A stretch of DNA of 64,000 nucleotides. Source: Caprella mutica. Its lineage: Eukaryota > Arthropoda > Malacostraca > Amphipoda > Caprellidae. Location: assembly GCA_947561585.1 (NCBI GenBank), contig CANNZV010000914.1, positions 423,703 through 487,702 on the forward strand, in the 5' to 3' direction. How positions within the stretch are numbered: position 1 is the first letter of the stretch; every line of letters starts with the position of its first letter. A model generated the notes under the pieces. That model did not search any database. It had not been told where the DNA came from and worked only from the letters and a program-made list of their open reading frames with translations. This document shows positions 673 to 3,600 of this stretch, in pieces. A program made the translations under genes and the position numbers.

Positions 673-3600
673 GTGAGAAACCTATTGAAATTTATAAAAT
701 CCTCATGATTTGATCTATTGCAAAGACATCTCTGCTCTATTAGCAGTATTAAAAATTTAAAAAAGTTGCTTGTTATTATAAATAATTCTTGCTAGTTTTT
801 TATAAATTAATTATATATTTTTTCAATTTAACACTTGTAGCTATTTTTTATTTGAATTTGTGTTTGTTAACAGTATTTACTATAATTATATCTTTCTCTT
901 TCAGGCTGTGGATGCATTTGATAACAAAAGATTTCACTTCCTCATTCTCAAATACAAATACTTTGAGTTGCTGTGCATCAAAGCCGAAGCTCCTGACTCT
1001 GCTAACAGTGACTTGGCTGTATCTGAACTAGTCAAGGTATGTAGTAGTGACTTGGCTGTATCTGAACTAGTCAAGGTACGTAGTAGTGACTTGGCTGTTT
1101 CTGAACTAGTCAAGGTACGTAGTAGTGACTTGGCTGTATCTGAACTAGTCAAGGTATGTAGTAGTGACTTGGCTGTATCTGAACTAGTCAAGGTACGTAG
1201 TAGTGACTTGGCTGTATCTGAACTAGTCAAGGTACTTAGTAGTGACTTGGCTGTATCTGAACTAGTCAAGGTACGTAGTAGTGACTTGGCTGTTTCTGAA
1301 CTAGTCAAGGTATGTAGTAGTGACTTGGCTGTTTCTGAACTAGTCAAGGTACGTAGTAGTGACTTGGCTGTATCTGAACTAGTCAAGGTATGTAGTAGTG
1401 ACTTGGCTGTATCTGAACTAGTCAAGGTACGTAGTAGTGACTTGGCTGTATCTGAACTAGTCAAGGTATGTAGTAGTGACTTGGCTGTATCTGAACTAGT
1501 CAAGGTACGTAGTAGTGACTTGGCTGTTTCTGAACTAGTCAAGGTACATAGTAGTGACTTGGCTGTATCTGAACTAGTCAAGGTATGTAGTAGTGACTTG
1601 GCTGTATCTGAACTAGTCAAGGTACGTAGTAGTGACTTGGCTGTATCTGAACTAGTCAAGGTACGTAGTAGTGACTTGGCTGTATCTGAACTAGTCAAGG
1701 TACGTAGTAGTGACTTGGCTGTTTCTGAACTAGTCAAGGTACGTAGTAGTGACTTGGCTGTATCTGAACTAGTCAAGGTACGTAGTAGTGACTTGGCTGT
1801 ATCTGAACTAGTCAAGGTACGTAGTAGTGACTTGGCTGTATCTGAACTAGTCAAGGTACGTAGTAGTGACTTGGCTGTATCTGAACTAGTCAAGGTATGT
1901 AGTAGTGACTTGGCTGTATCTGAACTAGTCAAGGTACGTAGTAGTGACTTGGCTGTTTCTGAACTAGTCAAGGTACGTAGTAGTGACTTGGCTGTATCTG
2001 AACTAGTCAAGGTACGTAGTAGTGACTTGGCTGTATCTGAACTAGTCAAGGTACGTAGTAGTGACTTGGCTGTATCTGAACTAGTCAAGGTACGTAGTAG
2101 TGACTTGGCTGTATCTGAACTAGTCAAGGTACGTAGTAGTGACTTGGCTGTATCTGAACTAGTCAAGGTATGTAGTAGTGACTTGGCTGTATCTGAACTA
2201 GTCAAGGTACGTAGTAGTGACTTGGCTGTTTCTGAACAAGTCAAGGTACGTAGTAGTGACTTGGCTGTATCTGAACTAGTCAAGGTACGTAGTTGTGACT
2301 TGGCTGTATCTGAACTAGTCAAGGTACGTAGTAGTGACTTGGCTGTATCTGAACTAGTCAAGGTACGTAGTAGTGACTTGGCTGTTTCTGAACTAGTCAA
2401 GGTATGTAGTAGTGACTTGGCTGTATCTGAACTAGTCAAGGTACGTAGTAGTGACTTGGCTGTTTCTGAACTAGTCAAGGTACGTAGTAGTGACTTGGCT
2501 GTATCTGAACTAGTCAAGGTACGTAGTAGTGACTTGGCTGTATCTGAACTAGTCAAGGTACGTAGTAGTGACTTGGCTGTATCTGAACTAGTCAAGGTAC
2601 GTAGTAGTGACTTGGCTGTATCTGAACTAGTCAAGGTACGTAGTAGTGACTTGGCTGTATCTGAACTAGTCAAGGTATGTAGTAGTGACTTGGCTGTATC
2701 TGAACTAGTCAAGGTACGTAGTAGTGACTTGGCTGTTTCTGAACAAGTCAAGGTACGTAGTAGTGACTTGGCTGTATCTGAACTAGTCAAGGTACGTAGT
2801 AGTGACTTGGCTGTATCTGAACTAGTCAAGGTACGTAGTAGTGACTTGGCTGTATCTGAACTAGTCAAGGTACGTAGTAGTGGGTAGCCGGTAAATTGCT
2901 CGAAAACAATTGCTCGAAAGACAATTGCTCGAAAACAATTGCTCGAAAAACAATTGCTCGAATGAACAATTGCTCGAAAGAACAATTGCTCGAACGAACA
3001 ATTGCTCGAATGAACAATTGCTGGAATTATCAAATTGCTCGAATGATCAAAATTGCTCGAATTACAAAATTGCACAGTTTTCGATTTTATAAAAGTCAGT
3101 TATACATGAAGTGGAGCTGCACCTAACAATCCTTGTTTCTTTTTAGTAATTGATCATTAATCATTCTATAAATGATTTTAATTATTACTCATTCTGCATA
3201 ACCTTTTTTTTAGACCGTTTGTGTCATCTCGTATGTAACATGTGAATTGGAATCATGTGGTGAATTACTACTATCCATGTTTTTTTTTATCATAAAACCC
3301 GAATACTTATTTATTACTAGCCTATCTGTATGTGGCAGGTGGAATAACTCAAAGTTTAAATAAATCTAAAAAAAAAAATCGGGTTTTATGATAAAAAAAA
3401 ACATGAATAGTAGTGATTCACCACATGATTCCAATTCACATGTTACATACGAGATGACACAAACGGTCCAAAAAAAAAAGATTATGCAGAATGAGTAACA
3501 ATTGAAATCATTTATAGAATGATTAATGATCAATTACTAAAAAGAAACAAGGATTGTTAGGTGCAGCTCCACTTCATAAATAACTGACTTTTATAAAATC

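Follow-up and report, generated by a model that had tools for sequence, protein, structure and literature searches.

Tandem copies of the WDR47 exon 2 splice donor form a long minisatellite in the amphipod Caprella mutica

Introduction

Why would a conserved gene carry dozens of near-identical 5' splice sites at the end of one exon, and which of them would be spliced? The question is raised by WDR47 of the amphipod Caprella mutica, in which the boundary of exon 2 and intron 2 is repeated in tandem. We analysed the locus in a window of 64,000 nucleotides (contig CANNZV010000914.1, positions 423,703 to 487,702); positions without a stretch name are those of the window. A first-pass annotation of this DNA had offered three options, a ladder of isoforms, a decoy array that buffers U1 binding and a neutral expansion. 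The last of these fits best, while the ladder and the decoy proved poorly supported.

The annotation had also stated that it knew of no described case with so many repeated donors, which was wrong as to the kind of array. "Mirage" minisatellites are reported from amphioxus, in Adh3, the globin genes BflGb6 and BflGb9, troponin C and PGBD5; they reportedly leave regular splicing undisturbed, and the globin paper ties them to intron gain (PMC3087553, PMC3902484). We consider it quite likely that the WDR47 repeats are a mirage-type minisatellite carried as intron, with donor 1 doing most of the splicing, in a genome where arrays start readily at donors.

Results

The exons that flank the repeats are given in Table 1; later WDR47 exons were matched at 40,550-46,305, and the gene measures about 46 kb. 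Intron 1 is 232 nt long and intron 2, counted from donor 1, 3604 nt. Among the best 120 of 1214 hits, the closest homolog is Hyalella azteca WDR47 (66% over 99%), followed by Trinorchestia and decapods. In an alignment of the first 400 residues of these 120 proteins, the junction of exons 2 and 3 (ELVK/VLEE) has the same length in 119, and the one other listed protein is without this region. The sequences of the Wdr47 N-terminal structures 7wek and 7wej are gapless at the junction when aligned and have small gaps about ten residues upstream of it. In searches of the 903-Mb assembly (7200 contigs), 45 of 45 matches to exon 1-2 DNA fell on the window's own contig, and one copy of the locus was found in the assembly.

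Table 1 Features of the WDR47 donor arrays and of donor arrays in sampled stretches of other contigs
Feature	Position	Strand	Basis or remark
WDR47 exon 1, coding from ATG 460	460-672	+	89% to Hyalella WDR47 residues 1-72
WDR47 exon 2, phase 0 to phase 0	905-1036	+	homology, exon mapping
Donor 1, GTATGT	1037-1042	+	homolog alignment; joined to 4641 gives the conserved protein
Array A, 48 copies of 39 bp (exon end, donor, first intron bases)	1007-2882	+	repeat finding, unit alignment
13-unit block, units 23-35	1866-2372	+	505/507 bases equal to 2373-2879
Second 13-unit block, units 36-48	2373-2879	+	near-identical to 1866-2372
Left target-site duplication, GTAGTAGTG, 9 bp	2874-2882	+
Foldback (inverted-repeat) element, 935 bp	2883-3817	.	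16-bp subterminal repeats; TAG at 2885
Right target-site duplication, GTAGTAGTG, 9 bp	3818-3826	+
Array B, two 39-bp then eighteen 33-bp units, 20 AAG/GTA donors	3824-4495	+	unit alignment
Degenerate terminal copy, donor AAAGTACGT	4496-4530	+	U1 duplex -1.8 against -5.6 to -6.3 kcal/mol in other copies
WDR47 exon 3	4641-4784	+	homology, exon mapping
Plectin/MACF1 exon donor array	L016:230-719		E 2.7e-7
PDK1 PH exon donor array	L024:3118-3244		E 6e-8
PDK1 kinase exon donor array	L024:5460-6081		E 4.4e-21; found by its exon
PDE5-like exon donor array, weak match	L026:3642-4679		E 0.028 and open exon running into first copy

The central claim of the first-pass annotation, that the exon 2/intron 2 boundary stands in 48 tandem 39-bp copies with GT in all 48, was borne out. 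Repeat finding gave array A a period of 39, 48.1 copies and 97% matches; the first of its 48 unit starts lies at 1008, and every spacing is exactly 39. Of the 39 bp of a unit, 29-30 come from the end of exon 2 and 9-10 from the start of intron 2, the donor included. The observation is thus confirmed, and it is enlarged by an insert, by 20 further donors and by a decayed last copy. The 33-bp unit of array B is the 39-bp unit less 6. The most altered copy of the whole array is the terminal one at 4496, whose decay would fit the edge of an internally homogenised array. Together, arrays A and B and the last copy comprise 69 copies with 68 AAG/GTA donors, and splice signals in many copies are one of the marks of a mirage. 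Across the genome, a 15-mer taken from the unit matched 65 times in forward orientation, always at the WDR47 array on its own contig (C914), and once in reverse elsewhere.

Eight unit types occur in array A, in irregular order. The identity of the two 13-unit blocks at 505 of 507 bases suggests, as far as the sequence goes, that the array has grown recently; shuffle support for a block duplication is moderate, with 111 of 5000 unit-order shuffles reaching the block statistic and 388 of 5000 the best lag. Long identical units are hard to assemble, and a block pair that differs at 2 of 507 bases might raise the suspicion of an assembly artefact. We hold such an artefact to be extremely improbable, given the irregular order of the eight unit types, the transposon with its target duplication inside the array, the distinct 33-bp subarray and the presence of sister arrays on three other contigs (below).

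The insert between the two arrays is a foldback element that matches its own reverse complement at 91% over 912 aligned bases. Dropping the 935 bp and one 9-bp repeat restores an unbroken 39-bp array, and the element therefore entered a 39-bp array that already existed. Its stop at 2885 closes the reading frame of array A. A relative of the foldback subterminal sequence, at about 82-97% identity, was seen in a stretch sampled elsewhere in the genome (L013).

As the annotation had noted, the 39-bp frame is free of stops, running open from exon 2 to the TAG at 2885; the unit has one open frame on the plus and one on the minus strand. The repeat peptide had been said to follow one pattern, V(R/C) and 11 further residues, in every copy, to which we found one VL, one VH, two SEQVK and one SCDL as exceptions. 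The stop-free array A, two periods that are both multiples of three, and U1 competence of all 48 array A donors by duplex energy are what one would expect of an isoform ladder, in which donors 1 to 48 would be appreciably used and 13-residue repeats inserted between the CTLH helices would give WDR47 proteins of graded length. We consider this unlikely. The repeats would be inserted exactly where 119 of the 120 listed homologs keep a constant length, and of 7993 candidates scored, none matched the repeat peptide (translated-stretch residues 57-300) at E ≤ 0.001. Splicing from donor 48 would extend the exon to about 2 kb. Variation in the donor bases resembles that in the rest of the unit, and three of four sister arrays have periods that are not multiples of three, as described below.

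Several other searches accompanied this analysis. Pfam matches of the translated array were taken as repeat artefacts, and the repeat peptide was dropped as a known domain. A single-sequence fold of exon 2 with repeats gave strands at a mean pLDDT of 60.5 (31-38 in the other four models) and was set aside as too poor. Rfam, at the gathering score, returned 0 matches in the 64-kb window. The motif ACTAGT lies within units of 4 of the 18 arrays of the window, including those at 22846-23564, 34246-35773 and 1007-2882; it was rejected as a shared motif, for although it reaches at most 2 itself in 2000 resamplings, half of these have some 6-mer in at least 4.

All 48 donors of array A read AAG/GT, continuing as GTACGT in 36 copies, GTATGT in 10, and GTACTT and GTACAT in one copy each. 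The donor form GTRYGT given in the annotation thus holds for 46 of 48 and fails in the last two, single-copy variants in which the +5G is lost. Five of the 39 columns of the unit are variable. The donor (9 nt) holds three of the six variant alleles against 1.4 expected (6 x 9/39; P of at least three = 0.14), and both GT columns would be invariant by chance with P = 0.76; the GT in 48 of 48 copies is therefore no sign of selection.

In order to see the WDR47 array against its genome, we sampled 20 stretches of 10 kb, each from position 100,001 of one of 20 contigs, and five more stretches that brought the sample to 250 kb, counting arrays of at least 100 bp, period at least 10 and at least 4 copies. 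The first 200 kb held 48 arrays covering 16.5% of bases, of which seven have 48 or more copies and three are at least as long as array A; the whole 250 kb held 52 arrays (14.0% of bases). An array of the WDR47 size is ordinary for this genome. Period remainders of 0, 1 and 2 on division by three were found in 16, 17 and 15 of the 48 arrays of the 200 kb. An in-frame period was accordingly discarded as a sign of selection, being a one-in-three event.

A donor-like word (AGGTRNGT or AGGTRAG) is present in 6 of the 52 array units and, reversed, in one (two-sided binomial P 0.125). AGGTRAG alone occurs in four of the 52 units, a number reached by 4 of 300 permuted words (mean 0.72); for GTRAGT alone, 5 of 52 units is no excess, since 32 of 180 permuted words do as well. 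Inspection of the sequence around the six units with a donor word and of the edges of all 52 arrays showed four arrays that start where a recognisable exon ends, at its donor (Table 1). The weakness of the PDE5-like match is seen from an unrelated control peptide, which reached E 0.0012 against a designed protein. Three of the six donor-word units lie in exon arrays, and those in L007, in L015 (cut by the stretch end) and at L016:5547 remain candidates. By chance placement 0.24-0.60 donors would be expected in seed units, assuming 20,000-30,000 genes with 6-10 introns each and a mean unit of 35 bp, and the Poisson P of four or more is 0.0001 to 0.0035 when the four are treated as independent; two of them lie in one gene, PDK1, and are therefore not independent. 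The sister arrays have periods of 31, 25, 57 and 23, of which only 57 is a multiple of three. The exon part of their units ranges from 3 to 47 nt, and the donor is the part common to them. The two donor arrays of PDK1 stand about 2.2 kb apart (L024:3118-6081).

The recurrence of donors in minisatellites elsewhere, together with 68 AAG/GTA donors in about 3.5 kb, could also be read as the work of selection, which might keep a donor array as redundancy against donor mutations or as a U1 decoy or telescripting platform in a gene of this length. The plectin/MACF1-like array keeps AAGGTAAG in 16 of 16 copies, and the two PDK1 arrays keep GT in 5 of 5 and 11 of 11. The PDE5-like array, however, has GT in 17 of 44 anchored copies and is without it in 27, the +5G is missing from 2 of 48 WDR47 copies, the last copy has a poor donor, and donor bases show no excess of conservation. 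A selected array is in our judgement distinctly unlikely.

A simple edge filter gave nine donor-type and nine acceptor-type candidates. Four of the donor-type candidates are the exon arrays of Table 1. The other five had no convincing Pfam match, and the one of them compared with solved structures, in L023, had no match there. None of the nine acceptor-type candidates had a convincing Pfam match, a comparison in which the acceptor control was weaker than that of the donor side. Four of them were compared with solved structures, where three had no match at E ≤ 1 and one matched a designed protein only (E 0.0012); among the five outside the structure search, two are antisense of known exons. At L023:3657-3792 a possible fifth exon-donor array follows an open exon. 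Myosin exons were found on the contig pairs C1840/C2332, C238/C3351 and C4339/C5968 with near-equal scores, and therefore second haplotypes or recent duplicates are present for some loci.

Genome-wide, we counted places with three words in tandem at gaps of 10-40 on both strands (reversed control word TGAGTGGA), a count of copies and not of arrays. The word AGGTAAGT gave 9245 against 4834 for its reversed word, its count being inflated by GATA/GGTA-like repeats. For this reason AGGTGAGT was used as well, with 9458 against 3083 for the reversed word. Its scramble, GGATGTGA, gave 519 and the reverse of the scramble 3986, the controls differing eightfold among themselves. By hand count among the places listed, AGGTGAGT forms at least 11 arrays on contigs 1-31 and GGATGTGA at least 9 on contigs 1-220. 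Weighted by copies, donor words exceed controls of the same composition, which supports an excess of donors in arrays but falls short of proof.

Most likely, then, arrays nucleate readily at 5' splice sites in this genome and are carried as intron. For a wider claim we would put the chances about even: that minisatellites arise preferentially at 5' splice sites, in thousands of genes and in any frame, with no clear counterpart at acceptors, through a mutational hot spot at intron starts that leaves tens of redundant donors in many genes. Such a hot spot could be due to U1 binding, to R-loops or to breaks at the exon-intron step.

Which donor is used was considered from donor strength and position. 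Duplex energies with U1 range from -5.6 to -6.3 kcal/mol for array A, inside the span of -4.6 to -9.7 given by the donors of exons 1, 3, 4 and 5; the 48 donors of array A pair with U1 about as donor 1 does, which counts against a preference for donor 1. The 20 donors of array B stand close to exon 3, at 155 nt or more, and the last of them would leave an intron of 155 nt; this closeness is a layout that intron definition would favour, a second point against donor 1. In a human study, the upstream of two near-equal donors was reported to be preferred under exon definition, more strongly where a short upstream intron meets a long downstream one; five minigenes with two identical donors used the upstream donor exclusively under exon definition in transfected cells, and large exons were skipped when their donors had been weakened (PMC9225289). 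The same study reports that stronger donors won in 86% of events and that about 60% of all events, before strength matching, favoured the downstream donor (PMC9225289). By analogy, and with 232 nt of intron 1 before the exon against 3604 nt of intron 2 behind it, the donor nearest the upstream acceptor would be expected to win among equals, and splicing probably still proceeds from donor 1, in the first copy.

Each unit has an AG directly before its GT (CAAG/GT), and pyrimidines make up 6-8 of the 15 bases before the unit AGs, against 7-13 of 15 at four acceptors of WDR47. The repeats could conceivably act as acceptors and donors at once, by recursive splicing or by the birth of an intron of the Rogers type. 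We think this very unlikely, as a long pyrimidine run is absent and a nearer AG (CTAG) stands in each unit. In intron gain of the Rogers type, the new intron lies between two duplicates, and its donor and acceptor come from the duplicated segment. The WDR47 duplication, in contrast, lengthens an existing intron. Gain of this type starts from coding sequence in which a segment with AGGT has been duplicated in tandem (cited in PMC3087553).

Discussion

The history that we favour for the mirage-type array would begin with the tandem duplication of a 39-bp stretch over the 5' splice site of WDR47 exon 2. Slippage or unequal exchange would have carried the array to 69 copies, a 33-bp variant would have expanded at the far end, and the foldback transposon would have landed within the 39-bp part. 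The array would stay intronic. Exon definition would direct most splicing to the donor at 1037, nearest to the acceptor of exon 2, which yields the conserved protein. Later donors would be used rarely or never; an exon extended into array B would meet the stop inside the transposon. Its existence would be explained by the abundance of minisatellites in this genome and by their readiness to start at 5' splice sites, where the gene is kept working by the first copy.

Like the amphioxus mirages, the WDR47 repeats span an exon-intron boundary and have splice signals in many copies. They differ in scale, with 48 and 20 donor copies against 6 and 3 units reported for two haplotypes of BflGb6, and in kind of boundary, since only 5' boundaries were recognised in Caprella mutica and both kinds are reported in amphioxus. 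They also differ in their crustacean host and in having a transposon and a second unit length inside (PMC3087553, PMC3902484). Length instability between haplotypes or cells is a further trait described for amphioxus mirages. Internal tandem repeats within human segmental duplications are similar in that minisatellite expansion alters gene structure and can touch splice sites; they are described as averaging 4 copies of 30 bp, with some at exon-intron boundaries and some proposed as new introns (PMC2812944). An ordinary intronic VNTR or minisatellite shares with the WDR47 array the high identity, the near-identical pair of 13-unit blocks and the irregular order of variants, whereas the WDR47 unit includes an exon end and a splice donor. 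The portions of open-licence papers covered by our literature search contained no mirage array in a crustacean and no such copy numbers. Tandem repeats of 30 or 33 bp are reported in the coding sequence of a prawn lectin family (PMC7536079), and the Parhyale genome is reported to be very rich in repeats, its introns averaging 5.4 kb (PMC5111886).

The WDR47 array hence belongs to a kind already described, here in an animal group new to it, and such arrays seem to be common in this genome. Its functional readings are weak; what deserves following is that minisatellites seem to be seeded at splice donors. Should donors nucleate minisatellites across the genome, the amphipod would be a natural test bed for the origins of minisatellites and for how the spliceosome chooses one donor among dozens of near-identical ones. 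The 48 nearly equal donors of WDR47, spaced at 39 bp, form a ready-made measure of donor choice against distance. With such seeding, the range of mirage arrays would reach beyond amphioxus to a distant animal group, and large crustacean genomes would have a source of intron growth.

Other features of the window lie outside the arrays. An open reading frame of 494 aa from stop to stop (26948-28432, plus strand), between WDR47 exons, could represent a further exon of WDR47, a nested gene or a chance frame. At 11791-16804 and 49981-56115 there are two sets of long open reading frames, a zinc-knuckle frame followed by an endonuclease/reverse transcriptase frame, which we take to resemble non-LTR retrotransposons; the first set sits between WDR47 exons.
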